Notes under the pieces: generated by a model
Seen by the model: the letters and a program-made list of their open reading frames with translations, nothing else
Databases searched by the model: none
What the model was told of the DNA's origin: nothing
Position numbers and translations under genes: made by a program
Part shown: one piece after another, positions 8,959-54,861 of the stretch
Numbering within the stretch: position 1 is the stretch's first letter
Layout: every line of letters starts with the position of its first letter
From: Halobaculum sp. XH14
GTDB lineage: Archaea > Halobacteriota > Halobacteria > Halobacteriales > Haloferacaceae
DNA: 64,000 nucleotides
Direction of reading: 5' to 3'
NCBI RefSeq assembly: GCF_032116555.1
Contig: NZ_CP134949.1
Coordinates: 1,054,001-1,118,000 of the forward strand

Positions 8959-11900
8959 ATGACACAGGACTATTCACGCAAGACGCGGGCGCTCGTACTG
9001 GCGGTACTGATGACGACTTCCGTGTTCGCGGGGGTCGCCGCGTTCGGTGGAACGGCAGTTGCGGCTACGGCGAACACCGCGACGATCACGGTGGATGACG
9101 ACGGGTCGGCTGATCACTCGACGATCCAGGCCGCGATTGACGCCGCCTCACCAGGTCAAACGATTCACGTGAAGGCGGGAACGTATAATGAGCAGCTCAC
9201 GGTCGACAGCTCCGTGACGATCGTCGGTGCAGGGGAGGGTGCAACGACGATCGACGGTGGACTGAAAGTCGATAGCGCCGTCACGGGTCTGACGATACGG
9301 AACCTGACGATGGCCGGGAACCGTGGGGCATCCCGGACGTTGTACAGTACTTCGACGTTGACCGATCTTACCGTTTCGAACGTCACGTTCGACGGCCAGG
9401 ACTCGGTCGGATTCGCCATCTACGGAAACGACTTCGCGGGTGACGTCGAGATCACGCACAGCACGTTCACCGGCTACAACGATGCCTCGCAGTGGGCGAC
9501 CGTCTACGTGTCGACGAAGACGGGCATCGGGGACGTCGAGTTCTCCTCCAACGACGTCACCGACAACACCGGGATGGTCAACTTCAACGGGAACGAAGCC
9601 GCGAGCTCGGACCGGATCGACTCGCTGACCGTCACGGACAACACGTTCACCGGAACCGTGCTCGATAGCGGTGGAGCGTCCGCTGCCGCGCTGTCGGTAA
9701 AGGACGCGGACGACAGCACCATCTCGGGTAACGAGTTCAGCGGGAACTACGCCGACTTCCACTACGCGAACGCGAGCGTGCAGACGAGCGCGATCCTCGC
9801 CAACAACGACTTCCAGGCGGATGCCGTCCAGTTCAACACCTCGAACGGCTACGTCGTCTACCCGAGTTCTTCGGCCGCTCGCACCGCGCTAGCGAGCGAC
9901 GACGCGACCTACGCGGAGAACGTCGAGACGGGTGACTTCCTCGTCGCGGACGGCATGTCGATCCAGACGGCGATTGATTCGGCCGACGCGGGCGATGAAA
10001 TCCGTGTCGCCACGGGAACCTACGACGGGTTTATCGTCGACAAGGACGTTACCGTTACCGGCGAGGGAGCCGACGTCCTCATTGACGGTGGGGCCGACAT
10101 CCGCGCGGACGCGGCGACGCTCCGGAACGTCACCTGGGACGACACCTACACTGGCAGCGGACCGCTGGTGAACGTCTCCGGGGACGAGGTTCTGCTCGAA
10201 CACATCGAATTGGACAACGTTCCGACGAACCACGGCTCGTCGATCGTGATCCGGGGGGACAACGTTACTCTCACCGAGAGTACGCTGGTGCGTGGCGGTG
10301 ACGGCGGGTTCGCGCTCATCCATCTCTTCAGAGGGCCGAACTCGGTCGTGGCGACCGGATCGCCTACCGGCGTCGAGATCACGGATAACGTCATCAGCGG
10401 CGGCGACGTCGGAGTGTTCCTCCAGGCCGACCAGTCGGTCACGATCGAGGACAACGAGATCACTCCGGCTTCCAGCGACGACGATGCGATCTGGGTGACC
10501 GGGGTCGCCTACGGCTCACTCTCCGCGGACGCGACGCTGAACATCGAGAACAACGGCGAGCTGGTGGAGGTGAACAACGCGACGACCGGGACGGTCCACT
10601 ACATGACGTCCGTGTCGGCGGCGTTCACGAGCGACCAGTCGCCCATCACCGAGGGTAGCACGGTGTCGATTCCCGACGGAACGTACACGCTCTCGGAGCG
10701 GGCCGAGATTCCCGCCGACAACGTCACCGTCGAAGGGGAGTCTCAGGCGGGCGTCGTGATCGACGGCTCCGGCGTCCCGTGGCCAATCTACGCCCACAAC
10801 AAGAGCGACCTGACGCTCCGCAACTTCACGCTCTACGGAACCGAGCAACCGAACAGCGACGATTCGATCAAGGTCGCGTTCGCGGACGGCCTGACGATAG
10901 AGAACGTCGCGGTGAACGGCTCCGACGGCAACGAAATCGACCTGAACAACGTCCGGAACGCGTCACTCAGGAACCTCGAAGCAAACGGTGAGGACACCGC
11001 GGGCGTCGGCGTCGGGCTCACCGCGGTCCAGAACGCCACGCTGGAGAACGTCGACACGCGGAACAACAGCTGGGGCGGCGTCGGGCTGTACGACGTCGCC
11101 TCGGACGTCTCATCCCCCACGGGCTGGACGCTGATCGAGAACTCCGGAGACGTAACCATCGCGGGGACGAGCGACCTGTCGGAGAGCGTTTCCCTCTACT
11201 CCGATCAGGAGTACGGAGGCACCCTCGGTGATCTGTACGCGCCCGACTACGAGTACGCGGTCGAGAACCCGGACCACAGGGAGAACGTGGATCAGCGGGG
11301 CGAGGACTTCGTCTACTTCCACAGGACGGAAGCCGACGCGATCGCGTACGCACGCGGCCTCGACAACAACCAGAGTTCGACGGTCCGGACGCTGAGCAAG
11401 GACGGATCGGGCGAGATCGACCTCGGATCGACGTTCGTCGTCGAGGACGGGATGTCCGTCCAGGCCGCGGTCGACGCGGCGGACGCGGGCGACACGATCC
11501 AGGTCCGCGAGGGGACCTTCGCGGGTGACATCACCGTCGACAAGCCGCTCACCATCGAGGGCGCGGGCGCGGACGCGACCGTCATCGACACGAACGGCGG
11601 CGGACACGCGTTCACCGTCTCCGCGTCGGACGTGACGATCAGCGGCCTCAACGCCACCAACGGCAACACGGGCATCGACGTGCCGCGGACCGCCGAAGTG
11701 TCGAACTTCCACCTCGAGAACGTCGTCCTCTCGGGGAACCAGTTCGGCGTCTACGTCCACGGGGACACCGTCAACACCGACGACACCGACAACGGCGAGT
11801 TCGACGGCGTTCACTTCGAGAACGTCCACATCACCGACAGCGTGGAGAAGGGGATGTACATCGAGAAGCTCTCGAACGCGACGTTCGATGGCGTCATCGT

Positions 11901-14900
11901 CGACGGCGTCACCAGCGACACCTACGGGTTCAACAACGGGATCGACATCAACCTCAAGGACGGCGACTACGAGAACGTCACCATCCGGAACTCGGTCGTC
12001 CGGAACGTCTCGAAGGGCACGCCGTACGACGGGACGGACTCGTTCTCGGCCGCCATCGCCATCAAGGCGCGCGACGACGAGAACAAGGACTACGGAGACG
12101 ACCCCGGAACCCTTGATGGCGTTACCATCGACAACGTCACCGTCGAGAACTCGTTCAACGGCCTGCGGTTCGGCGAGCCCGGATCGACGAACAACGAGCC
12201 GACGAACGTGACGGTCCGGGACTCCACGTTCCGGAACAACGTCGGCTACCACGTGTCCATCGAGACGGAGTCGCTGAACCTCAGTGACGCGGTCACGACC
12301 TCGAACAGCTTCGGGAAGCAGGTCCTGCTCGCGGAGGGCCAGCCCGAGGACCGTGCGGACTTCACCGGCGGCATCTGGGCGAACATCGGCGACGCCGTCG
12401 AGTCGGCCGAGAACGGCGACTACGTCGTCATTGGGGCCGCCACGTACGACGAGACGGTTCGGATCAACACGGACAACGTCACGATCATCGGAGCGCCCGG
12501 CGCGACGATCGCGCCGTCCGACCAGACGATGGCGTCCACGAGTCGCGACCGCATCATCGACACCGATCGCCATTCGAACGTGACGATCCAGGGGCTCACC
12601 ATCGTCGGCACGGGAACCAAGATCGATGATCCCGTCGGCGTGACGCTCTGGGGCGCGAACAACACGGTCGAGGACGTCACGATTGAGAACGTCCTGACCG
12701 CGGTTCAGACCGCGTCAGGCGGCTCCGACAACGCGACGGTTCGGGACGTGACGGCCGTCAACGTCGGCGTCGGTATCAGCGTCCAGTCGAACGATACCGA
12801 GGTCACCTCGAGTTCGGTCGAGAATGCGAGCATCTCCGGAATCGGGGTTCTCAACGGCCGTGAGGACGTCCGCCTGATCGGGAACGAACTGACCAACGTT
12901 GACGGACCGGCTGTCAAGGTCAGCGACCACCTCGACACGACGAGCGGATCGGTCCGGATGCTCAACAACGTGTTCGGAAACGACACCGACGGGGTGAACA
13001 ACGCCGGCGGCGTTTCAGTCAACGCGACGTTCAACTACTGGGGCAGCCCAGCGGGACCGAACGCATCCGGGAACACCTACAACTCGGACGCACAGGGTGT
13101 CAACGTCACCGGCGACGTAACGTTCACGCCGTGGCTCGACAGTTCGCCCTCGACCGGATCGCCGGCCACCGGTATCGCTCCCGTGATCAACACGGACACC
13201 AACGAGACGTACGCCTCCATCCAGGCGGCAGTCAGCGACGCGAGTTCGGGTGACACGATCTACGTCACAGCGGGAACGTACGACGAGTTCGTCGACATCA
13301 GTGCGAACAACGTCACGATCGTCGCTGAGGACGGTGCGAAGATTGCGCCGTCCGAGTCGACGATAGCGAACCAGAACAGTCGTGCCTGGCTCGTTGACCT
13401 GCGTGGGCACTCGAACGTGACGATCGACGGACTCGCGTTCGAGGGCAACGGCACTGACTCCCTCGTCGGTGTGGCAGTGAACGGGGAGAACGCCACCGTA
13501 CACGGTGCTACCATCGAGAACGTTCTCACCGGCATCCAGACGCACTCGAAGTGGGATCTGGCGAACAACACGTTCGGGGAGAGCTCCTCCGACGGGGCCA
13601 GGATCCTGAACAACGACATCCACAACGTGGAGTACGGGATCAGCATCCAGTCGAACGAGGCGATCGTCTGGAACAACTCGATTTCGGACGCCAACTCCGG
13701 GGTTGCGGTCCTCAACGGCCGCGACAACGTCGTCGTGATCGAGAACGACTTCGCCGCCCTCAACGAGACGGCGGTCGGAATCAGTGACGGCTTCGTGAAG
13801 GACGGCTCGGTCGTCACGACCGGATCCGTCGAGGTGCACTGGAACGATCTCAGTGGCGGCACGCACGGAGTCAACAACACTGCCGGCGTCGACGTCAACG
13901 CCACCCACAACTACTGGGGAGCGCCGACCGGGCCCGCCGGCGAAGGGCCCGGCGCGGGCGCGAACGTCAGCGAGAACGTCACGATCGTTCCGTTCTACAC
14001 GGACGCGGCGCTGACCGAACTCTCGACCGAGCCGCCGCGACTCTCGGCCGTCTCGCTGATCGACGAGACCGACGGCAACGGCGTGGTCGACTCGGGTGAC
14101 GTACTCAACGTGAGCGCACGTGTAGAAGACGGAAGCGGCGTCGACACCGTCGTCGTCGACGCCCAGCCGTTCGGCGGCAGCGGGACGCTGGCGCTGACCG
14201 ACGAAAACGACGACGGCGTCTACGACGCGGCGTTCACGGTCGACGCCGACGCGGCGACTTCACCCGACAGCAGCTTGTCGCTGGGGGTGACCGCCACCGA
14301 CGCCGGCGGCGCGAACGCCAGCGCGTCGACCAACGCCGTCACGCTCGAGACCGACTCGGAGACGACGACGACCTACACCGTCTCGGACACCAGCCCGCTA
14401 AGTTCCGAGGTGGTCTCGGTGAACGTCACCGTCGCCAACGTCGGCAACCGCTCGGCCGACCGGACCGTCACGCTGCTGGTCGACGGTTCGGCGGTCGCGA
14501 CCCGCTCGGTCTCGGTGGCCGAGGGTGCCAACCGGACGGTGACCTTCGAGCGGAAGTTCGCCTACGGCGAGCACGTCGTCACCGTCAACGACTCGGTGAG
14601 CACGCTGGTGAACACGACGGTCACCGCCGTGCGGCCGACCAACCCGAACGCCGACGTGGCGATCACCTCGCCGAACGCGGGCGAGTCCTTCGCCAGCGAC
14701 TCGGTCACCGTGGAGTACGACCTGACCGACGTCGACTCCGGCATCGCGAACCTCACCTACGCGGTCGACGGCGGGTCGGCGACGACCGTCACCGACCTGA
14801 CCCGGTCCAACGTCACCCTGACCGCGCTCCCGGACGGTGAGCACACCGTCACCCTGACGCTCGTGGACAACATCGACAACACGGTCGCGAGCGACACCGT

Positions 14901-17817
14901 CACGTTCGACGTCGACTCCACGGAGCCGGTCGTGACGATCCAGCCCGGACGGGACGGGAACGTCAGCGCGAACCGGTCGGTCGACGTCGACCTCGCGGTC
15001 GACGAGGAGAACCCGGGAACCGCGACGTTCGAGGTCCGGGACGGCGGAACGACCGTCTACAGCGAGGACGTGAGCGACGAACTCGCCGACGGCTCCGAGA
15101 CGCTGACCTGGGACGCGACGAACGACGCCGGCGACAAGGTTGCGACGGGCGAGTACGACCTCGTCCTGAACGCGACCGACGCGGGCGGGCTCTCGAACGA
15201 GACGACCGCGACGGTCAGCGTGGACAACACGCCGGCCTCGGTCACCAGCATCACGCCGGACACGACCGACCTCGGCAGCGGTGACTCGGTGACCGTCACG
15301 GTCGACGCGACCGACGCCCACTCGGGCGTCTCGAACGTCTCGGTGACGCTCGTCGCCGACGACGTGAACTACCGGACGACCGCCGACGCGACCCGGAGCG
15401 GCGGGTCGTGGGAAGCGACGTTCGACGTCGCGAACCTCTCGGTCGACGGGAGCTACAGCGTGCACGCGACCGCGACCGACGCGGCGGACAACGATGGAAC
15501 GGACGTGAACGCGGGCGCCCTCGACGTGGACACGACCGCGCCGACGGTGAGCGCGATCATCGACACGAAGAACGACACTCACGGGTACGTGAACGTCACA
15601 GTCGCCGACGACGTGGCGGGCACGGGCGATATTGGACTCAACCTGACTCGCGGAGGAAATTCGGTGACCGTCACTGGCCTCTCCCAGGTAGATAGCTCGA
15701 ACACGTACTCTGGGACATTCCCCCTCAGCTCCGGCAATTACGTTCTCGAGGCCAACGCGACCGACGCGGCCGGAAACCTCGGAAACGCCACCGCGAGCGC
15801 GAACATCACGGCCGGCCTGAACGGGCCCGCCGGTGACACGAAAACGATCTCCGGAGCGGACGGCACGGAGATCGAATTCAACTTCAACGAGTCCTACTCC
15901 GACGGGCAGGCCGCGCTCACTACGTCCGGGACGGCGCTCGCTGACCTCGGGACCAACGTGGGGTCGACGTTCCTCAACGGCGAACTCAACGAGAACCTCA
16001 CCGACGCGCTCGACAACGCGACGATCCGCATCCCGGTTCAGGGCAACGTGCCCGACGGGGTCGACGAGGAGAACGTCACCATCAGCCGGTACAACGAGAC
16101 CGCCGGCGAATGGGAGCAGCTCGATACGACGGTCGAGGGTGACTACTTCGTCACCACGGTGGAGCACTTCTCCACCTACGGGCCGGTGAACCCCGACACG
16201 ACGGCGCCGAGCATCGACGCCTCCGACGTGTCGCCCACCTCGCCCACCTACAGCACTGACACGGTCGACGTGACCGTCGAGTACAGCGACAACAACAACG
16301 TCGACGCCGGGAACGTCACCGTCCGGTTCGACGGCACGGACGTGACCGCCGCCGCCGCGACGAGCGTCTCGCCGACCGAGGTGACCTACTCGGCCAGCGG
16401 CCTCGTCGGCTCGGGGACCCACTGGCTGAACGTCACCGTGGTCGACACGGCCGGCAACAGCGAGACCAGCAACGTCAGCTTCATCGTGCCCGAGGACACC
16501 GAAGCGCCGGACGTGACCGCCGAATTCGCGGACTCGTACGCCTACGGCACGACCACGGTCCCGATCGAGTTCAGCTTCGACGACGCGCTGAGCGGGGTCG
16601 ACGCGAGCAGCGTGACGCTGACCGTGGACGGGACGAAGGTCGCCGACGCGGACGCGACGATCACCGAGGACGGCGTGCAGTACGACGCGACCGGGCTCGC
16701 GTCCGGAAGCCACACCGCGAAGGTGACCGTCTCGGACGAGGACGGGAACCCGGTGACCGAAACCGTTTCGTTCACCATCGCGAGCGACACCGACACCCCG
16801 CGGGTGACCGACTCGACGATCTCGCCGACGCCCGACGACGGCGTCCTGGCGCTCGGGACCACGCAGGCAACGATCAGCTTGGACTACACCGACGACACCA
16901 GCAGTATCGACGCGGGCGCCGTCGAGGTCACCTTCGACGGCACGGACGTCACGGACGAGGCGGTCGTCACCGCCACCGGGCTCGAGTACACGGCCGTCGG
17001 GCTCGAGAACGGCAGCAGCTACACCCTCTCGGCGAAGATCGTCGACGACGGGGGCAACACGATCACCGAGAACGTGACGGTCGAGGTCGCCGCCCCGCCG
17101 TCCGACGACTCCGGTAGCGTCGGTGGGACGACCGGTTCCACCGGCGGCAGCGGCTCGGCACCGACGAGCCGCGTGACGACCTCGCTCGTCGGCGGGCAGG
17201 CTCACATGACAGTCGGCGGGAGCGTCTCCGACGTGAGCATCCACTTCAGCGGGGGCGGCAGCGGGGGTTCGGTCTCCGCACAGCCGCTCTCCGAGCGGCC
17301 CGACTCCGTCCCGGCGATTCCCGACGCCGACGGCTTCGCGTACGTCGACCTGAGCGTGCCCGCCGACCGGGCCGACGCCAGCGCCACGCTGGAGTTCACG
17401 GTCAAGTCGAACGCCATCGGCGACACGGCCCCGAGCCAGCTCACCGTCTACCACTACGGCGACGGCGAGTGGTCGGCCCTGGAGACGACGGTCGTCTCCT
17501 CGGGCGGCGGGGAGGTCGTGCTGGAAGCCACGACGCCCGGCTTCTCGCTGTTCGCGGTCGGCGCACAACAGCAGCAGACCGACCAGCCGGACGACACGAC
17601 TGACGCGCCCGACGACACGACGGACCAGCCGGACGACACCACCGACGCGCCGGACGACACGACGGACCAGCCCGACGACGGCACGGACGCGCCCGACGAC
17701 ACGACCGACGAGCCGGTCCAGGAGCCCGGCGGGTTCGACTTCGGCGCGCTCGCCGTGATCCTGCTGGTCATCGTCGTGCTCGTCGCCGGATACGCAGTCT
17801 GGACCCGGGCCGAGTAA
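8959..17817 (+). CDS. giant beta-helix surface protein with Ig-like domains and PGF-pre-PGF region
   Basis: A 2,952-residue secreted protein. The first 35 residues are a haloarchaeal S-layer-type signal peptide (RKTRALVLAVLMTTSVFAG, cut near AVAAT). Six parallel beta-helix modules begin near residues 44, 326, 550, 825, 1137 and 1410, each with a pattern like IQAAIDAA..G..I.V..GTY. Modules 5 and 6 end in matching NYWG blocks. Next come a CARDB-like domain (about 1805-1885), Ig-like repeats, and two PGF-pre-PGF-like segments (about 2290-2415 and 2715-2870). Six QPDDTTD-type repeats form a stalk, and a single membrane helix forms the end. There are very many N-glycosylation sequons. It is likely an adhesin or carbohydrate-binding surface fibre. 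The start at 8959 fits the signal peptide. Confidence 0.9.
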   Translation: MTQDYSRKTRALVLAVLMTTSVFAGVAAFGGTAVAATANTATITVDDDGSADHSTIQAAIDAASPGQTIHVKAGTYNEQLTVDSSVTIVGAGEGATTIDGGLKVDSAVTGLTIRNLTMAGNRGASRTLYSTSTLTDLTVSNVTFDGQDSVGFAIYGNDFAGDVEITHSTFTGYNDASQWATVYVSTKTGIGDVEFSSNDVTDNTGMVNFNGNEAASSDRIDSLTVTDNTFTGTVLDSGGASAAALSVKDADDSTISGNEFSGNYADFHYANASVQTSAILANNDFQADAVQFNTSNGYVVYPSSSAARTALASDDATYAENVETGDFLVADGMSIQTAIDSADAGDEIRVATGTYDGFIVDKDVTVTGEGADVLIDGGADIRADAATLRNVTWDDTYTGSGPLVNVSGDEVLLEHIELDNVPTNHGSSIVIRGDNVTLTESTLVRGGDGGFALIHLFRGPNSVVATGSPTGVEITDNVISGGDVGVFLQADQSVTIEDNEITPASSDDDAIWVTGVAYGSLSADATLNIENNGELVEVNNATTGTVHYMTSVSAAFTSDQSPITEGSTVSIPDGTYTLSERAEIPADNVTVEGESQAGVVIDGSGVPWPIYAHNKSDLTLRNFTLYGTEQPNSDDSIKVAFADGLTIENVAVNGSDGNEIDLNNVRNASLRNLEANGEDTAGVGVGLTAVQNATLENVDTRNNSWGGVGLYDVASDVSSPTGWTLIENSGDVTIAGTSDLSESVSLYSDQEYGGTLGDLYAPDYEYAVENPDHRENVDQRGEDFVYFHRTEADAIAYARGLDNNQSSTVRTLSKDGSGEIDLGSTFVVEDGMSVQAAVDAADAGDTIQVREGTFAGDITVDKPLTIEGAGADATVIDTNGGGHAFTVSASDVTISGLNATNGNTGIDVPRTAEVSNFHLENVVLSGNQFGVYVHGDTVNTDDTDNGEFDGVHFENVHITDSVEKGMYIEKLSNATFDGVIVDGVTSDTYGFNNGIDINLKDGDYENVTIRNSVVRNVSKGTPYDGTDSFSAAIAIKARDDENKDYGDDPGTLDGVTIDNVTVENSFNGLRFGEPGSTNNEPTNVTVRDSTFRNNVGYHVSIETESLNLSDAVTTSNSFGKQVLLAEGQPEDRADFTGGIWANIGDAVESAENGDYVVIGAATYDETVRINTDNVTIIGAPGATIAPSDQTMASTSRDRIIDTDRHSNVTIQGLTIVGTGTKIDDPVGVTLWGANNTVEDVTIENVLTAVQTASGGSDNATVRDVTAVNVGVGISVQSNDTEVTSSSVENASISGIGVLNGREDVRLIGNELTNVDGPAVKVSDHLDTTSGSVRMLNNVFGNDTDGVNNAGGVSVNATFNYWGSPAGPNASGNTYNSDAQGVNVTGDVTFTPWLDSSPSTGSPATGIAPVINTDTNETYASIQAAVSDASSGDTIYVTAGTYDEFVDISANNVTIVAEDGAKIAPSESTIANQNSRAWLVDLRGHSNVTIDGLAFEGNGTDSLVGVAVNGENATVHGATIENVLTGIQTHSKWDLANNTFGESSSDGARILNNDIHNVEYGISIQSNEAIVWNNSISDANSGVAVLNGRDNVVVIENDFAALNETAVGISDGFVKDGSVVTTGSVEVHWNDLSGGTHGVNNTAGVDVNATHNYWGAPTGPAGEGPGAGANVSENVTIVPFYTDAALTELSTEPPRLSAVSLIDETDGNGVVDSGDVLNVSARVEDGSGVDTVVVDAQPFGGSGTLALTDENDDGVYDAAFTVDADAATSPDSSLSLGVTATDAGGANASASTNAVTLETDSETTTTYTVSDTSPLSSEVVSVNVTVANVGNRSADRTVTLLVDGSAVATRSVSVAEGANRTVTFERKFAYGEHVVTVNDSVSTLVNTTVTAVRPTNPNADVAITSPNAGESFASDSVTVEYDLTDVDSGIANLTYAVDGGSATTVTDLTRSNVTLTALPDGEHTVTLTLVDNIDNTVASDTVTFDVDSTEPVVTIQPGRDGNVSANRSVDVDLAVDEENPGTATFEVRDGGTTVYSEDVSDELADGSETLTWDATNDAGDKVATGEYDLVLNATDAGGLSNETTATVSVDNTPASVTSITPDTTDLGSGDSVTVTVDATDAHSGVSNVSVTLVADDVNYRTTADATRSGGSWEATFDVANLSVDGSYSVHATATDAADNDGTDVNAGALDVDTTAPTVSAIIDTKNDTHGYVNVTVADDVAGTGDIGLNLTRGGNSVTVTGLSQVDSSNTYSGTFPLSSGNYVLEANATDAAGNLGNATASANITAGLNGPAGDTKTISGADGTEIEFNFNESYSDGQAALTTSGTALADLGTNVGSTFLNGELNENLTDALDNATIRIPVQGNVPDGVDEENVTISRYNETAGEWEQLDTTVEGDYFVTTVEHFSTYGPVNPDTTAPSIDASDVSPTSPTYSTDTVDVTVEYSDNNNVDAGNVTVRFDGTDVTAAAATSVSPTEVTYSASGLVGSGTHWLNVTVVDTAGNSETSNVSFIVPEDTEAPDVTAEFADSYAYGTTTVPIEFSFDDALSGVDASSVTLTVDGTKVADADATITEDGVQYDATGLASGSHTAKVTVSDEDGNPVTETVSFTIASDTDTPRVTDSTISPTPDDGVLALGTTQATISLDYTDDTSSIDAGAVEVTFDGTDVTDEAVVTATGLEYTAVGLENGSSYTLSAKIVDDGGNTITENVTVEVAAPPSDDSGSVGGTTGSTGGSGSAPTSRVTTSLVGGQAHMTVGGSVSDVSIHFSGGGSGGSVSAQPLSERPDSVPAIPDADGFAYVDLSVPADRADASATLEFTVKSNAIGDTAPSQLTVYHYGDGEWSALETTVVSSGGGEVVLEATTPGFSLFAVGAQQQQTDQPDDTTDAPDDTTDQPDDTTDAPDDTTDQPDDGTDAPDDTTDEPVQEPGGFDFGALAVILLVIVVLVAGYAVWTRAE
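17581..17706 (+). repeat. six 21-base repeats encoding an Asp-Thr stalk
   Basis: Six consecutive 21-base units encode alternating DQPDDTT and DAPDDTT heptads near the C-terminus of the giant surface protein, just before its membrane helix. The fifth unit has DDGT in place of DDTT. The segment is acidic and Thr-rich, like the O-glycosylated stalks of haloarchaeal S-layer proteins, and likely holds the domains away from the membrane. Copy number could vary between strains by slippage. Confidence 0.9.
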
Positions 17818-27364: not shown

Positions 27365-27895
27365 CTACTCGCCGCCGTCGCCGCGCAGTCGGTCGACGAT
27401 ACGCTCGCCCATCCCGCGGGCGTCGGGTTCCAGCAGGTCGAGTTCGTCGCCGACCGATAAGGGGCCCGCATCGAGCACGTCCACACAGATGCCGCCCCGG
27501 CGCTCCTTCAGCGCCCGCGCGACGCCCTTCTCCCCCGCGACCTGCTCGACGTGCGCGCACGGCGGTCGGGGTCGCGTCCCGCGGAACGTCGCCCCGCCGA
27601 TCCGGAACTTAGCGCCGAGCAGGTCGTGGAGTTCGTCGGTGCCGACGCCGCGGAGGACGACGTTCCGGCGGTGGCGGCCGTCGGTGAGGTCGAGGTCGAA
27701 CGCCTCGCGGATCTCGTCGACGGCCTCGGCCGCGACGAAGGTGACCTCACAGACGTCGAACGGCGAGTAGTAGCCGGTCCCGAGCAGGTAGCGGTCCCCC
27801 TCGATGCCGCCCTCGACGCACTCGACCCGGTCGTACCGGACCATGGGGGCCGAGTCCTCCGGCGCGGTGAACAGCGCCTCTACGTGGGGATCCAT
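27365..27895 (-). CDS. MOSC-domain protein
   Basis: A 176-residue stand-alone MOSC domain (the sulfur-carrier C-terminal domain of molybdenum cofactor sulfurases). Blocks seen are GGIEGDRYLLGTGYYSP near 29-45, RNVVLRGV near 77-84, and the Cys-bearing PRPPCAHVEQV near 108-118. Such proteins may take part in detoxifying reductions or sulfur transfer; no molybdenum gene is near. Its 3' end faces the acetamidase gene. Upstream lies the first full copy of the structured repeat. Confidence 0.85.
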   Translation of the reverse strand: MDPHVEALFTAPEDSAPMVRYDRVECVEGGIEGDRYLLGTGYYSPFDVCEVTFVAAEAVDEIREAFDLDLTDGRHRRNVVLRGVGTDELHDLLGAKFRIGGATFRGTRPRPPCAHVEQVAGEKGVARALKERRGGICVDVLDAGPLSVGDELDLLEPDARGMGERIVDRLRGDGGE

Positions 27896-28135
27896 GCTAG
27901 AATCATCTTCACGGATTCGGTTAGTTCTTCGTCGGTTTCGGATCGTGGTTCGTCGCTGGGTCTCGCTGGTCGCGACCGTGGAAGCCCCCGGAAGGATGGG
28001 AATCGGTGGTGGCTCAGTCACTGGATAGCAGTTCTCGAACGCCCCCGACTGGGTCCGCTCCCACGGAACGCGGCCGCCGCGTGCCAGGTGGCTCGTCCAG
28101 TCGAGTGCGGTGGCGCGCGGCCGACGGACCTCCGT

Positions 28136-28479
28136 TCACGCGAGCGAGCCTGCGAGCGAGGGTGAACTCACGGGACCGCAGGTCCCGGGTAGTGCCCGCC
28201 GCCGTCGCGCGAGGGATGAGGGAGCGTAGCGAGCGAAGCGAGCCGAGCGAACGAATCGGCTGGGGAGGCGTGTGGCTGTGCGGGGCGGTGGGTGGGACTG
28301 AAAGGGGCCGCATCTGTGGGCGATGGCGCGGACCGTCAAGCACCGCAGGAGGGAGGCCGCAGGCCGACCGACGAGGAGCGCAGCGGCCGCACCGAGCCGA
28401 CAGGTGCGGGGGCTTTCGAGGCGTGCGCCACGACCACTGAGCCACCGAATGAATCGATAGATGCGGGGGCTTTCGAGGC
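28136..28479 (+). repeat. structured 344-base dispersed repeat, copy 1
   Basis: A copy of the family also found at 52211-52554. Shared blocks in order are TCACGCGAGCGA; a hairpin CGGGACC-GCA-GGTCCCG (28171-28187) flanked by CACGG and GGGTA; TCGGCTGGGGAGGC; GGTGGGACTGAAAGGGGCCGC (from 28291); CGTCAAGCACC.CAGGAG; CGACGAGGAGCGCAG; and the 18-base tail TGCGGGGGCTTTCGAGGC at 28405, repeated at 28462. It lies 72 bases past the 3' end of the gdhB-type gene, on the opposite strand if read in this orientation. Open frames through it look accidental. The surrounding 27896-28135 and 28480-28550 hold no gene that I can support. Confidence 0.8.
28299..28418 (+). ncRNA. candidate structured RNA core, copy 1
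   Basis: The core folds as one long hairpin. TGAAAG (28299-28304) pairs with CTTTCG (28413-28418). Then GGG faces GGG (28305-28307 and 28410-28412), and CCGCATCTGT (28308-28317) pairs with ACAGGTGCGG (28400-28409) with one G-U. The second copy keeps the same layout with a different stem sequence, as expected if the RNA fold matters. Transcription and strand are not shown by the sequence. Confidence 0.45.
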
Positions 28480-28550: not shown

Positions 28551-29807
28551 CTAGGGCCAGTTGCCGTTGTCCATGTACGCGTCCACCACGCGCTGGATCG
28601 CCACCACGTAGGCCGCGGTCCGGAAGTTCGGCACGTCGAGCGCCTCGTAACAGTCGATCAGGTCCTCGAACGCCGAGACGATCTGGGTCTCCAGTTCGTC
28701 GTTGACGCGCTCCTCGCTCCAGTAGAAGCGCTGGCGGTTCTGCACCCACTCGAAGTAGGAGACGGTGACGCCGCCCGCGTTGGCGAGGATGTCCGGAAAC
28801 ACGGCCACGTCGCGCTCGGTGAGCACGTCGTCGGCGTCGGGCGTGAGCGGCCCGTTCGCGGCCTCGACGACGACGTCGGCCCGCACGTCGCGCGCCAGGT
28901 CGCCGTCGACGGCGTTCTCCAGGGCCGCGGGAACGAGCAGGTCCACGTCGAACGTGAGCAGGTCCTCGTTGGAGAACTGCTCGTCGGCGCCCCCGTAACC
29001 CGTGACCGACCCCGTCTCGTTCTTGTGTTCCTTCACGTCGCGGGTGTCGAACCCGTGCTCGTGGTAGATCGCGCCCGAGGAGTCAGAGACGGCGACGACG
29101 TCCGCGCCGAGGTCCTCGAGGAGGTAGGCGGCGATGTGGCCGGCGTTGCCGTACCCCTGGACGGCGACGTCGGCGCCCTCCATCTCCTTGCCGAGGTAGT
29201 CGAACGCCTCGCGCGCGGTGAGCATCGTCGAGCGTCCCGTCGCCTCGACGCGCCCCTCGCTGCCGCCCGATTCGAGCGACTTCCCGGTGACGACGCCCGG
29301 CTCCGTGGTGTTCTCCAGCGTCTCGTAGGTGTCCTTGATCCAGTTCATCTCTCGCTGGCCGGTGTTGACGTCCGGCGCCGGGATGTCCGTGTCCTCGCCG
29401 ATGAACGGGCGCAACTCCTCGGCGAACGAGCGCGTAATGCGTTCGAGTTCGGCCGCCGAGTACTCCGCCGGGTCGACGTCGATGCCGCCCTTCCCGCCGC
29501 CGTAGGGGATGTCGACGACGGCGCACTTGTACACCATCCACCCCGAGAGCGCCTTCACCTCGTCGCGGCTGACGCCCGGGTGGTACCGGATGCCGCCCTT
29601 GTACGGTCCGCGGTCGCCGTTGAACTCCGAGCGGAACGCCCGGAACCGCCCAACTGAGCCGTCGTCGAGGTCGACCGAGAGGTTGAGTTCGAGCACCCGC
29701 TCGGGGTGTTTCAGGCGCTCGAGGACGTCGCCGCTCACGTCGAGATACGCCGCCGCGTCGTCGACCTGCTCTTGCAGGCTCTCGAAGGGGTTGGCCTCGC
29801 CTGACAT
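28551..29807 (-). CDS. gdhB: glutamate dehydrogenase (GdhB type)
   Basis: A 418-residue Glu/Leu/Phe/Val dehydrogenase interconverting glutamate with 2-oxoglutarate and ammonia. The substrate domain has [11 protein letters not shown] (near 66-76), PYGGGKGGI with the catalytic Lys, and IPAPDVNTG. The Rossmann domain has [16 protein letters not shown] (near 213-228). The length and the start [14 protein letters not shown] match the haloarchaeal GdhB group. It is divergent from a second, about 60% alike by eye, dehydrogenase gene. The coenzyme preference cannot be fixed from the motif alone. Confidence 0.95.
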
Positions 29808-30040
29808 GGTGCGCGATTCATGGCTTCGGGTGTTAGGTCTGTCGGCGACCGTCGCGGAGTGCCCCGCCGCTGTCGGTCGATTCCCTGCCCACCGATGACT
29901 AGTGACTAGCGGGGGAAATCTATAGTATACAAATGTGTATTATGACCTTATCTCTCTCAGTATCATCAATATTTTATCTACGCGGCGGCGAGCGGGGGTA
30001 TCGACCGCCGTTCCGCGCGGCGACGCGTCGACACAGCACC
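29808..30040. promoter_or_regulatory. divergent promoter region between two glutamate dehydrogenase genes
   Basis: An AT-rich island (29915-29980) in an otherwise GC-rich region. It includes the inverted repeat ATACA-AATG-TGTAT (29927-29940), the paired ACTAGT/GACTAG words at 29897-29909, and ATTTTATCTA (29970-29979), a good TATA box for the rightward gene. A site between the two promoters could switch which isoenzyme is made; Lrp-type regulators often do this for glutamate genes, but the regulator is not identified here. Confidence 0.55.
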
Positions 30041-31363
30041 ATGTCAACCGGAACTGCAGACACGACCGAACAGGAGTCGACCGACGGCGACGCGACGCCG
30101 GCCGACGGGCCCGAGGAGCCCGAGACGGCCCTGGAGACCGCTCGCCGGCAGCTCGAACACGCGGCCGCACACCTCGACGTCGACCCCGGCGTCATTGAGC
30201 GCCTGAAGCACCCGACGACGGTCCACCGCGTCGCGGTGCCCCTCGAACACGACGACGGCAGCGTCGAGGTGTACACCGGCTACCGCGCCCAGCACGACGA
30301 CGTGCGCGGCCCGTACAAGGGCGGCCTGCGCTACCACCCGCACGTCAGCGAGGAGGAGTGCGTCGGCCTCTCGATGTGGATGACCTGGAAGTGTGCCGTG
30401 ATGGACCTCCCGTTCGGCGGCGGCAAGGGCGGCGTCGTCGTCGACCCCCGCGAACTCAGCGACGGGGAGAAGGAGCGACTCACGCGCCGGTTCTCGGAGG
30501 AGCTCCGCAAGTTCGTCGGCCCGAAGAAGGACATCCCCGCGCCCGACATGGGCACCGACTCCCAGACGATGGCGTGGTTCATGGACGCCTACTCGATGCA
30601 GGAAGGCGAGACCATCCCCGGCGTCGTCACGGGCAAGCCGCCGGTCGTCGGCGGCAGCGAGGGCCGCGAGGAGGCGCCCGGCCGCAGCGTCGCGCTCGTC
30701 ACCCGCGAGGCGGCCGACTACTTCGACTACGATCTCGAGGGCCTCACGGTCGCGGTGCAGGGGTACGGCTCGGTCGGTGCCAACGCGGCGCGCCTGCTCG
30801 ACGACTGGGGCGCGGACGTCGTCGCCATCTCGGACACCGGCGGCGCCATCCACGACCCCGACGGACTCGACACCCACGCCGTCCCCTCGTTCGCCGAAAA
30901 GCAGAACGCCGTCACCGAACACGACGCGCCCGAACTGCTGGAGGACGGGAACGACGTCCTCGAACTTGACGTCGACGTCCTCGTTCCCGCGGCCGTCGGC
31001 AACGTCATCACCACCGAGAACGCGGCCGACGTCGACGCGGACATCGTCGTCGAGGGCGCGAACGGCCCGACGACGTTCGCGGCCGACGCCATCCTCGCCG
31101 AGCGCGGCGTCCACGTCATCCCCGACATCCTCGCCAACGCTGGCGGGGTCACCGTCTCCTACTTCGAGTGGCTCCAGGACATCAACCGGCGCACCTGGAC
31201 GCTCGAAGAAGTGAACGAGGAGCTCGAATCCGAAATGCTCTCGGCGTGGGACGACGTCCGCCGCGAGGTCGAAGCGCGCGACGTGACGTGGCGCGACGCG
31301 GCCTACATCGTCGCGCTCGACCGCATCGCGGAGGCCAAGAGCGTCCGCGGCCTCTGGCCGTAA
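30041..31363 (+). CDS. glutamate dehydrogenase, second isoenzyme
   Basis: A 440-residue Glu/Leu/Phe/Val dehydrogenase. Conserved blocks match those of the neighbour: [38 protein letters not shown] and [17 protein letters not shown]. An extra acidic N-terminus of about 35 residues ([21 protein letters not shown]) precedes the enzyme. Upstream in-frame ATG codons exist (for example 29933), but they lie inside the promoter region, so I chose 30041. Two isoenzymes back to back suggest opposite duties, ammonium assimilation versus glutamate catabolism. Confidence 0.95.
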
Positions 31364-51456: not shown

Positions 51457-52167
51457 ATGTCCGACCCGTTCGGTCGCGCCATCCGCGACTTCCACCGGGA
51501 CGAACAGGACGAACCGCTCCGCCAGATCGACGGCGAGGAGGTGCTCGAACACCCGATCGAGCGGTTCTACTTCGACGACCGGGACCCGGAGGACGAGCGG
51601 ACGCGGTGGCTCGAATCCCGCCTCTCGGGGCCGCTGCTCGACCTCGGTGCCGGCGCGGGCCGGGACGTGCTGTACTTCCAGGAACGGTTCGAGACGGTCG
51701 GGCTGGAGGTCAGCGAGCACCTCGTCGAGACGATGCGCGAGCGCGGCGTCGAGCGAGCGGTCCGGGGCGACATGTTCGACCTGCCGGCGACGTTCGACCG
51801 GGACCGCTTCGCGTCGGTGCTCGCCCACGGCACGCAGCTGGGGCTGGCCCGGCCGGACCACCGTCTGCGGGAGTTCCTCGCGGACCTCGCGTTCGTGACG
51901 ACCGACGACGCGACCGCGGTGCTCGACAACTACAACCCCGACGCCGAAACCGCGCAGAACCTGCTGGGGTTCCGCGAGGACCCGGAGCCGGGGATGGGCT
52001 ACCGCGTGATGCACTTCGAGTACGAGGGCGACCGCGGGGAGACGCTGCTGTTCCGGCCGTTCACGCCGGGCGTGCTCCGGGACGCTTGCGTCGGGACCGG
52101 GTGGGACCTCGCAGAGGTGGAGTTCAGCAACGAGCACCACTACCACGCCGTGCTGGAGAAACGCTGA
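51457..52167 (+). CDS. class I SAM-dependent methyltransferase
   Basis: A 236-residue enzyme. The SAM motif I is LLDLGAGAGRDVLYFQERF (near 63-81), the acidic end of strand 2 is VGLEVSEHL, and motif II/III blocks are RGDMFDLPATF and VLAHGTQLGLA. The substrate is unknown. A TATA-like GTTTAC (51426-51431) about 29 bases upstream and a GAGGGGGAG purine run (51446-51454) both support the ATG at 51457. The second copy of the structured repeat begins about 44 bases after its stop. Confidence 0.85.
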   Translation: MSDPFGRAIRDFHRDEQDEPLRQIDGEEVLEHPIERFYFDDRDPEDERTRWLESRLSGPLLDLGAGAGRDVLYFQERFETVGLEVSEHLVETMRERGVERAVRGDMFDLPATFDRDRFASVLAHGTQLGLARPDHRLREFLADLAFVTTDDATAVLDNYNPDAETAQNLLGFREDPEPGMGYRVMHFEYEGDRGETLLFRPFTPGVLRDACVGTGWDLAEVEFSNEHHYHAVLEKR

Positions 52168-52210
52168 GACTTCGGCATCCACGACGTCGCCAGTCCCAGG
52201 GCGGTGGCGG

Positions 52211-52554
52211 TCACGCGAGCGAAGCGAGGGTGACGTCACGGGACCGGTGGTCCCGGGTAACGCGTGACTGCGAGCCGTAGGCGAGCAGACGCGCGCGAGG
52301 GACGAGGTCCCGACCGCAGGGAGGGGCCTCGTCGGCTGGGGAGGCCGTGGCTGCGGTGCGGTCGCGGCGGGTGGGACTGAAAGGGGCCGCTGGGGTCGAC
52401 GACGGCGGACCCGTCAAGCACCACAGGAGCGAGCGAAGCGAGCGACGAGGAGCGCAGGCGCGGTCCCCCGAGTCGACCCCAGCGGGGGCTTTCGAGGCGT
52501 GCGTCACGACGACCGAGAAAACGTCAGAGTAGAGCACTGCGGGGCTTTCGAGGC
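52211..52554 (+). repeat. structured 344-base dispersed repeat, copy 2
   Basis: This matches copy 1 (28136-28479) block for block: TCACGCGAGCGA; hairpin CGGGACC-GGT-GGTCCCG (52239-52255); GCGTGACTGCGAGC, also found alone at 42279-42292; TCGGCTGGGGAGGC; GGTGGGACTGAAAGGGGCCGC; CGTCAAGCACC.CAGGAG; a variable hairpin GCGAGCGAAGCGAGCG; CGACGAGGAGCGCAG; and the tail GCGGGGGCTTTCGAGGC at 52482, repeated with one G fewer at 52538. It fills the gap between two convergent genes and ends 49 bases before the CDC48 stop. The flanks 52168-52210 and 52555-52602 hold nothing else that I can support. Confidence 0.8.
52378..52494 (+). ncRNA. candidate structured RNA core, copy 2
   Basis: TGAAAG (52378-52383) pairs with CTTTCG (52489-52494). 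GGG faces GGG (52384-52386 and 52486-52488). Then CCGCTGGGGTCGAC (52387-52400) pairs perfectly, 14 pairs, with GTCGACCCCAGCGG (52472-52485). Only the first four pairs of this stem match copy 1 in sequence; the rest differ but still pair. Between the arms, two conserved blocks surround a small hairpin. The functional strand is unproven. Confidence 0.45.
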
Positions 52555-52602: not shown

Positions 52603-54861
52603 CTACGACGACAACGAAGGCGAAACCGACTCCAGCGCGGCCTCGAAGTCCGCCATCGTCACCGACAGCTCGTCGGCGTGCTCGTTGGCGTCGTCCCCGA
52701 ATTCATCAGCTACCCGCTCGACAGCGCGCATCGTCGCGTCCCGGGTGACGGCCGTCAGGTCGGCACCGGAGTACCCGGCCGTCCGCGAGGCGAGCTCGGC
52801 CAGATCGACGTCGTCAGCCAGCGGCTTCTCCGCGGTGTGGACCTCCAGAATGCGGAGCCGCGCGTCCTCCCCGGGCGCGGGGACCTCGACGTGGCTCTCC
52901 AGCCGGCCGGGACGGAGCAGCGCGTCGTCGAGGCTGTTCCGTCGATTGGTCGCGGCCAGCACGGCGAGGCTCGGGTTCTCTGCCGCGCGGTCGAACTCGG
53001 TGAGCAGCTGGGAGACGACCCGCTCGCCGACGCCCGAGTCGCCGCCGGCGAAGTCACGGTCGCCCGCGAGTGCGTCGATCTCGTCGAAGAAGACGATGAC
53101 CGGGGCGGCCTGCCGGGCGCGCTCGAACAGCTCCCTGACCGCCTTCTCCGACTCGCCGACGTAGCGGTCGAGCAGCTCCGGCCCGGCGACCTGGATGAAG
53201 TTCACCTCCGACTCGCCGGCGATGGCCCGCGCGAGCAGCGTCTTCCCGGTGCCGGGCGGGCCGTACAGCAGCACGCCCGTCGGCGGGTCCGCGTCCGCGG
53301 CGTCGAACAGCGGCCCGTAGGTGAGCGGCCAGGTGACGGCCCGCTCCAGCGTCTCCTTCGCCTCCGTCAGCCCGCCGACGTCCGCGAACGTCGTCGAGGG
53401 CTTCTCGGCGACGTACTCGCGCATCGCCGACGGCTCGACGCTCGCCATCGCCGACTCGAAGTCCGCGCGGGTCACTTTCACGCCCCCCAGGTCCGCGTCG
53501 GCGTCGTCGTGGCGGACGCGACGGAGCGCGGTCAGCGCCGCTTCGGTGGTGAGCGAGTCCACGTCCGCGCCGACGAACCCGTACGTCCGGGCGGCGAGGC
53601 GGTCGAGGTCCACGTCCTCGGCCAGCGGCATCCGCCGCGTGTGGACCTCGAGGATCTCCCGACGGCCGGCCTCGCCGGGCACGCCGATCTCGATCTCGCG
53701 GTCGAAGCGCCCGCCGCGCCGGAGCGCGGGGTCGAGCGCGTCGACGCGGTTCGTCGCGCCGATGACGATCACGTCCTTCCGGGCGTCGAGCCCGTCCATG
53801 AGCGAGAGCAACTGGCCGACGACGCGGTTCTCCATGTCGCCGCCGTCCTCTCGCTCGCCCGCGATGGAGTCGATCTCGTCGAAGAAGATGATGGCGGGCG
53901 CGCTGTCGTCGGCCTCCCGGAAGATGTCGCGCAGGCGCTCCTCGCTCTCGCCCTTGTACTTCGAGGTGATCTCCGGGCCCGACACCGAGATGAACGTCGC
54001 GTCCACCTCGTTGGCGACCGCCTTGGCGATGAGCGTCTTCCCGGTGCCGGGCGGCCCGTGGAGCAGGACGCCCTTCGGCGGGTCGATGCCGAGCCGGGTG
54101 AACACCTCCGGCTCGGCCAGCGGGAGTTCGATCGTCTCGCGCACGAGATCGAGCTCCTCGTCCAGGCCGCCGATGTCCTCGTAGCTGACGCCCGCGGCCG
54201 CGGGGGTCGACTGTGCGGGCGTTCCGGTCGTTCCTCCCGTCCCCGTGCCGCCGCCCGCGGCGTGATCGCTCCCGCCGACGCTCGTCCGCGTCGACCCCGA
54301 GGTCGAGCGCGTCCGGTCGCCGGCGTCCTCTCCCCCGCCGCTCTCGCCGCTGCGCCGGACGGTCAGCCGCGTCCCGTCGCCGATCTTCACCGGTCCGTCG
54401 GGCGACGTGGAGGCCACGACGAACACGTTCCCGCCGAGGTGTGGCAGCCGGACCTGCTCGCCGGCGGTGACGGGCCGGCCGTCGAGGTCCCGTTTCGCCG
54501 CGCGCGAGAGCGTGGCGTCCTCGATGTCCACGTCGTCGAGCGTGGTCGGCGCGGTCAGGGTGACCGAGTCGGCCGGCCCGACGCTCTCGGGGGTCACGCG
54601 GACGGTCTCGCCGATCTTCGCGCCGGCGTTGGCCCGCGTGTCGGCGTCGATGAGGAGTTCGCCGTCGCCGGCCTCGGTCCCGGCGGGCCAGACTTTCGCC
54701 GCCGTCTCGCGCTCGCCCGCGATGCTGACCGTCTCGCCCGAGAGCACGCCCAGCGCGCTCATGGCCGCGTCGGGGAGGCGCGCGATACCCCGGCCCGCGT
54801 CCCGTTTCGCCGCCCCGCGGACCTGGAGGGAGATCCCGTCGTCGTCGCCGTCGTCGGTCAT
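52603..54861 (-). CDS. CDC48/p97-type AAA ATPase
   Basis: A 752-residue unfoldase with an N domain (about 10-180: double-psi barrel start [19 protein letters not shown]) and two AAA modules. The first has Walker [14 protein letters not shown] (near 270) and [13 protein letters not shown]; the second has [13 protein letters not shown] (near 537) and [13 protein letters not shown]. Arginine fingers are in ALRRGGRFD and LLRPGRLE. An unusual Gly/Ser/Thr-rich linker of about 55 residues (near 185-240) separates the N domain from the first module, longer than in the common archaeal enzyme. It extracts and feeds proteins to the proteasome. Confidence 0.95.

Follow-up and report, generated by a model that had tools for sequence, protein, structure and literature searches.

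A covarying folded core in dispersed intergenic repeats of Halobacteria, related to IS6-type miniature elements

The window, i.e., the whole 64,000-nt stretch of the Halobaculum sp. XH14 genome analysed here, carries two like segments, 28133-28479 and 52208-52554, which align over about 347 bp with 72% identity (E 1.4e-41). The pair reported by the first-pass annotation is therefore real, and its statement that neither segment holds a transposase, a terminal inverted repeat or a credible gene was borne out for both. The 18-mer GGTGGGACTGAAAGGGGC occurs at exactly two sites, 28291 and 52370 (0.02 expected in shuffles), and GCGGGGGCTTTCGAGGC is found at 28406, 28463, and 52482, with a copy carrying three mismatches at 52538. 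The features of the two copies are as follows.

28136..28479, forward strand: copy 1, the whole segment as delimited by the first-pass annotation; 72% identical to copy 2 over 347 bp
27365-28021 and 28551-29807, both reverse strand: genes flanking copy 1, which is intergenic
28136..28291, forward strand: arm upstream of the core in copy 1, with GC-rich hairpin modules (...GCTGGGGAGGCGTGTGGCTG...) common to many Halobaculum paralogs
28292..28417, forward strand: folded core of copy 1, from GTGGGACT to CTTTC; match to covariance model R1 at 28291-28421, E 5.0e-10
28300..28304, forward strand: 5' strand of stem P1 of copy 1, GAAAG, pairing with CTTTC at 28413-28417; covariation seen in other copies
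28308..28320, forward strand: 5' strand of stem P2 of copy 1, pairing with 28397-28409 in 12 of 13 pairs; sequence read directly
28397..28409, forward strand: 3' strand of P2 of copy 1, from the sequence read directly and the family pairing
28413..28417, forward strand: 3' strand of P1 of copy 1, CTTTC, directly after the GGG of the GGG/GGG internal loop
28463..28479, forward strand: extra 3' unit of copy 1, GCGGGGGCTTTCGAGGC, 57 nt past the first unit
52208..52554, forward strand: copy 2, between the convergent genes 51457-52167 (forward) and 52603-54861 (reverse)
52371..52493, forward strand: folded core of copy 2, from GTGGGACT to CTTTC; R1 match at 52370-52497, E 3.1e-12
52387..52399, forward strand: 5' strand of P2 of copy 2, pairing with 52473-52485 in 13 of 13 pairs; sequence unlike that of copy 1, read directly
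52538..52554, forward strand: extra 3' unit of copy 2, 56 nt past the first unit

Two divergent glutamate-dehydrogenase-like paralogs sit side by side, 28551-29807 (reverse) and 29933-31363 (forward), and copy 1 follows immediately downstream of the former. Elsewhere in the window, 9009-17817 is a single open reading frame of about 2900 codons that resembles a large surface protein; towards its end, at 17557-17745, comes an acidic repeat of seven residues (DDTTDQP/DDTTDAP-like).

The first-pass annotation had counted two full copies, which is a large undercount, as about 70 are present genome-wide. In the genome (3.68 Mb, three contigs), the 17-mer GTGGGACTGAAAGGGGC has 61 exact and 108 near-exact copies on both strands, while its reversed pattern, serving as a control, gave no match in the whole genome. 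The R1 model returned 70 genome matches at E<=1e-4. These include both window copies, which match over the whole model and belong to the haloarchaeal folded-core family that R1 defines. The copies are nearly all chromosomal, with one exact copy on contig C3. The covariance model detected the family in 232 out of 292 Halobacteria genomes, which represent 63 of 76 genera and include several Haloarcula and Natrinema species; 124 genomes belonging to other classes of this phylum gave no match. Further copies, without which the first-pass reading would have been hard to maintain, are thus plentiful in this genome and its relatives. The number of copies per genome ranges from 0 to about 75, and 60 of the 292 Halobacteria genomes have no match; therefore, the family has no essential function.

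No Rfam family matched at the gathering score, none matched over copy 1 even at E<=10, and the matches elsewhere in the search were chance matches only, all under the gathering score; a known RNA family was rejected on this basis. Literature searches on the core motif (in full text) and on the terminal repeat described below retrieved nothing relevant. Viral carriage was rejected, since viral contigs gave no exact match to the motif. As for plasmid carriage, a search with one Halobaculum copy, a query that would miss distant subfamilies, matched two Halobaculum plasmids only. A CRISPR array was also rejected, as the copies are dispersed, singly or in pairs, between unrelated genes, and do not form regular repeats with unique spacers beside cas genes.

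Copies were examined as excised genome stretches. The core of about 115 nt forms one long imperfect hairpin, in which the stems are almost free in sequence yet paired, and the loops GGG/GGG, GAA/GA, and GACGYAA/GCARCGA are near-fixed. In copies from other genera, the order from the outside is GTGGGACT, P1 (GAAAG/CTTTC), the GGG/GGG internal loop, and P2 (13-14 bp of free sequence), followed inwards by the loop GAA/GA, P3 (2 bp, a mismatch, and 4 bp), and the loop GACGYAA/GCARCGA, and innermost by P4 (GCACC/GGAGC or GGACC/GGACC), the loop GCA/GA, and a variable hairpin. RNAalifold run on alignment A1 returned the same structure without prompting, with changes on both sides in 21 of 31 pairs. 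In A1, 97.8% of the cells were paired, and the covariation score was 0.573, against 0.158 (sd 0.011) in shuffles, none of 500 of which reached it, and 0.06-0.08 in slid controls. For 121 model matches the score was 0.572 against 0.147 in the control. The A1 sequences had been chosen partly for pairing, and the P2 test was therefore redone without that choice, taking copies by the 5' motif and the first GGGGCTTTC after it. In this unselected sample, the 135 copies from outside Halobaculum formed on average 12.1 of 13 P2 pairs, compared with 7.5 when arms were swapped between copies, and the 42 Halobaculum copies formed 11.4, compared with 8.5. P1 covaries as well, being GAAAG/CTTTC, GGAAG/CTTCC or GAACG/CGTTC in different copies. 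The base pairs thus covary beyond chance, as in a structured RNA, and of the two readings offered by the first-pass annotation, that of a structured element holds for the family: the stems covary both in A1 and in the unselected sample, so the refuting outcome named there, a lack of covariation, did not occur.

The mismatches in the paired columns reveal which strand folds. On the strand as written, G-T mismatches numbered 101 and A-C mismatches 25, a ratio of about 4:1, and in the unselected sample they numbered 87 and 23; the sequences counted are related and not independent, though the direction was the same in each set. If both strands of a DNA hairpin mattered equally, equal counts would be expected. 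Therefore, the strand as written is the folding strand, and what is kept is this strand in its folded, single-stranded state, be it RNA or DNA. The same counts bear on the proposal that the covariation is a by-product of DNA repair, in which template switching in quasi-palindromes copies one arm to the other and the fold has no function. P2 is overwhelmingly Watson-Crick, as arm-to-arm copying would make it, and in one copy (L268) a stem has been lost between GGGGC repeats, so the hairpin has been acted on as DNA. On the other hand, such repair would act alike on both strands, yet G-T outnumbers A-C fourfold, and it would erase the fixed loops that do not pair, although these are conserved more than any other part of the core. 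The near-fixed loops thus argue against arm-copying repair as the whole cause, and we regard this explanation as quite unlikely.

In other genera the core is carried by IS6-type miniature transposons, some with a single core (about 200-220 bp) and others with an outward-facing pair (300-530 bp). The outer ends, as seen in genomes G230 and G082, read GG(T/C)(A/G)GTGTTCAGATA ... TTATCTGAACACTACC, and pairs of terminal repeats were present in 49 of 200 non-Halobaculum copies. An 8-bp target duplication is the rule in the IS6 family. Duplications of 8 bp with at least six matching positions flanked 24 of the 49 end pairs, a count in which paired-core elements enter once per core; permutations gave a mean of 0.9 and a maximum of 6. 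The duplication is exact in L118, L134, and L290. Genes with the IS6-family transposase domain PF13610 were found in 10 out of the 14 genomes searched, for example in G082, where near-identical copies exist. In the relatives, these genes sit in 697-bp elements with matching ends (GGTAGTGTTCAGATAAGCTG / GGCGGTGTTCAGATAAGGAT) and exact 8-bp duplications. Judging from the ends and 8-bp duplications shared with these IS6 elements, the unit in other genera is an IS6-type miniature element moved in trans, and as in IS6-type MITEs it is short and has no transposase gene. The small element moving in trans, the second reading of the first-pass annotation, is in this form also correct for the family. 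Where two cores lie close together, 48 of 49 pairs are divergent and none is convergent, and the centre between the cores measures 19-32 nt in most other genera; the complete form would thus be two outward-facing cores between terminal repeats. In G082, four near-identical copies show a recent spread.

The Halobaculum copies are different in that none of 91, the window copies included, has IS6-type ends, and PF13610 has no match in the window's genome, so the window copies, which have no definable ends, are linked to IS6 by descent only. By the model they are members of the core family, and thereby, on sequence criteria, relatives of IS6 MITEs but not intact IS6 MITEs; presumably the Halobaculum copies descend from a form with ends. 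They have additional hairpin arms upstream and, in many cases, further 3' units, spaced by 57 nt in 13 of 18 steps among the first 30 genome copies. In Halobaculum copies such as the two of the window and L004, L005, L017, L018, and L024, one to three decayed units, each made up of the 3' arm of P2 and GGGGCTTTCGAGG, follow the core on its 3' side. A coding reading of the 57-nt repeats (GAFEA frame) was discarded because of in-frame stops and the lack of a codon-position pattern. At the locus of copy 2, both sister species have the same two genes directly adjacent, about 20 bp apart, with the element absent, and at that of copy 1 both have the orthologous interval without the core. Such a distribution may reflect either gain in one line or loss in the sister lines.

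Similarity between Halobaculum paralogs ends right after CTTTCGAGG, and this stop could reflect another route of spreading in the genus. It raises the question of whether the folded single-stranded DNA is what a recombinase or an HUH transposase recognises, which would provide a second kind of mobility besides IS6, comparable to REP sequences, IS200/IS605 ends or attC sites. REP/BIME and attC sequences are likewise imperfect hairpins in which the folded single strand counts and the tip varies, and BIMEs contain inverted pairs. The core fits this idea: its imperfect hairpin is strand-specific, the loops are fixed and the terminal part is free, and in Halobaculum it has spread without IS6 ends. 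However, REP sequences are 20-40 nt long, attC sites have their own box motifs, and both use HUH or tyrosine enzymes, whereas the end-bearing core copies have DDE-type terminal repeats and 8-bp duplications, which HUH transposition would not be expected to produce. Furthermore, a search for an autonomous version, whose stem would hold an open reading frame, found none. Recognition as single-stranded DNA is, in our opinion, very unlikely to be the explanation.

The endA locus of Natrialbaceae allows the core to be followed at one position. Here, the core lies between the same two genes in several genera, and the interval is empty in many relatives. Similar distances to endA in most genomes suggest that these copies trace back to a single old insertion. 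In the copies with a stem of normal length, the P2 arms differ between genomes at 5.7 of 14 positions on average, yet P2 forms 12 to 14 of 14 pairs, and 13 or 14 in nine out of ten. No other observation speaks as strongly for retention of the fold itself. Among the variants, L261 is a remnant, and L268 has lost the stem exactly between GGGGC direct repeats; compared with L270 of the same genus, the loss of the whole stem leaves CTGAAAGGGGCTTTCAG. A role as a cis-regulatory element of a certain gene was rejected, as a common neighbour exists only at this one inherited locus, empty in many relatives.

Retention at endA is also what an independent structured RNA would predict, one with a host function, trans-acting or cis-regulatory, for which transposons are carriers and each copy is a selected locus. 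The core and its fold have outlasted the ends in Halobaculum, and the wobble asymmetry is RNA-like. However, the family has neither a consistent gene partner nor a consistent orientation, its copy number varies from none to dozens, many genomes do not have the element at endA, and no promoter-like conserved box was seen upstream. We therefore consider such an RNA unlikely.

As to position, 253 of 255 copies fall between genes. Where a single core separates two co-directional genes, it was sense in 58 cases and antisense in 34, a weak bias to which endA orthologs contribute 6 of the 58 sense cases; paired cores, as expected, had no bias (26 to 27). The sense bias is compatible with a role in read-through RNA, though no proof of it. 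That the fold acts as RNA by read-through transcription is, in our estimation, a little short of an even chance.

Taken as a whole, the family is probably best explained as a non-autonomous mobile family of the class Halobacteria, moved by IS6, whose core is kept because the single strand must fold. The complete form, known from other genera, would consist of an IS6-type terminal repeat, a leftward core, a short centre, a rightward core, and a second terminal repeat. It would insert between genes in trans by means of an IS6-family transposase, leaving an 8-bp duplication, and the single-core and core-only copies would derive from it. In Halobaculum, the recognisable outer ends would have been lost and the core kept, since the single strand as written would have to fold, with exchangeable base pairs and fixed non-pairing loops. 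The core would most likely work as RNA, arising from transcription of neighbouring genes that runs on across the insertion. Because paired cores always face outward, a transcript arriving from either side would meet a sense core just before leaving the element. We infer selection on the fold and, likewise, any effect on transcripts. More tentatively, the core may be a new, Halobacteria-specific class of structured RNA that was spread by IS6 miniatures and that the host retained once the ends had decayed, for instance as a signal for processing or termination; if true, such a signal would render intergenic insertions harmless or useful.

Several known systems come close to the family. MITEHarch3, an ISfinder entry named in PMC6807381, is haloarchaeal by its ISfinder name, of about the same size, and filed under IS6. 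Judging from name, size, and filing, it may be a member of the folded-core family. Two IS6 MITEs of 227 and 336 bp have also been reported (PMC7986276); the window copies differ from IS6 MITEs in being without ends. No mention of a conserved fold, covariation, paired cores or a class-wide range was found in either source (PMC6807381, PMC7986276). The archaeal IS6 group of ISH14, ISH15, and ISH29 comprises elements of 696-698 bp with a 211-aa transposase and mostly an 8-bp duplication (PMC6807381, table 5). The 697-bp elements with GGTAGTGTTCAGATAA ends fit this group and are likely to be the transposase source for the core elements; elements of this type differ in encoding a transposase, and the core was not found in them. 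The PATEs, MITEs, and SMRs of Haloquadratum walsbyi, as described in an extract of PMC3119063, are similarly small, transposase-free, and present in many copies, and core deletion between internal direct repeats occurs in them as in L268. According to the same extract, PATEs differ in having no terminal repeats and in being tied to IS605, and SMRs in having no target duplication, and no conserved covarying fold is described there for any of the three. The family was not assigned to the IS605-derived PATEs, as copies from other genera have terminal inverted repeats and target duplications.

The family is real and widespread, and consists of IS6-type miniature elements that carry a conserved, covarying, strand-specific fold. 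Large and class-wide as it is, with a strongly covarying fold, it matched nothing in Rfam, and the literature searches did not turn it up. It makes up a fair amount of the intergenic DNA of haloarchaea. Miniature transposons are usually deemed empty shells; here a single-stranded fold outlives the transposon ends, which gives a direct route to asking whether an RNA carried by a transposon has a job. Since each genome can hold dozens of natural compensated variants, the fold is testable in tractable haloarchaea. Recombination between inverted copies is also a possible cause of some chromosome inversions.

In genome G082, the inverted copies L285 and L286 (contig C7, near 1577200 and 1814200) have traded terminal repeats and the 8-mers beside them, the pattern that an inversion of the intervening segment of about 237 kb by recombination would produce. 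In some Halorussus copies and others (L084, L100, L121, L046), P3 and P4 are swapped for another stem, GGTCGTCT...ACTATT...AATAT...GAGCGACC, above an unchanged base of P1 and P2. Further hairpin modules (TCGTTCGAAAATC...GATTTTCG... and GAGAGAGC...GCTCTCTC) are nested in the loop or arms of the core in L011, L021, L022, L038, L047, and others, also in other genera; these are perhaps another mobile repeat that targets the core element.
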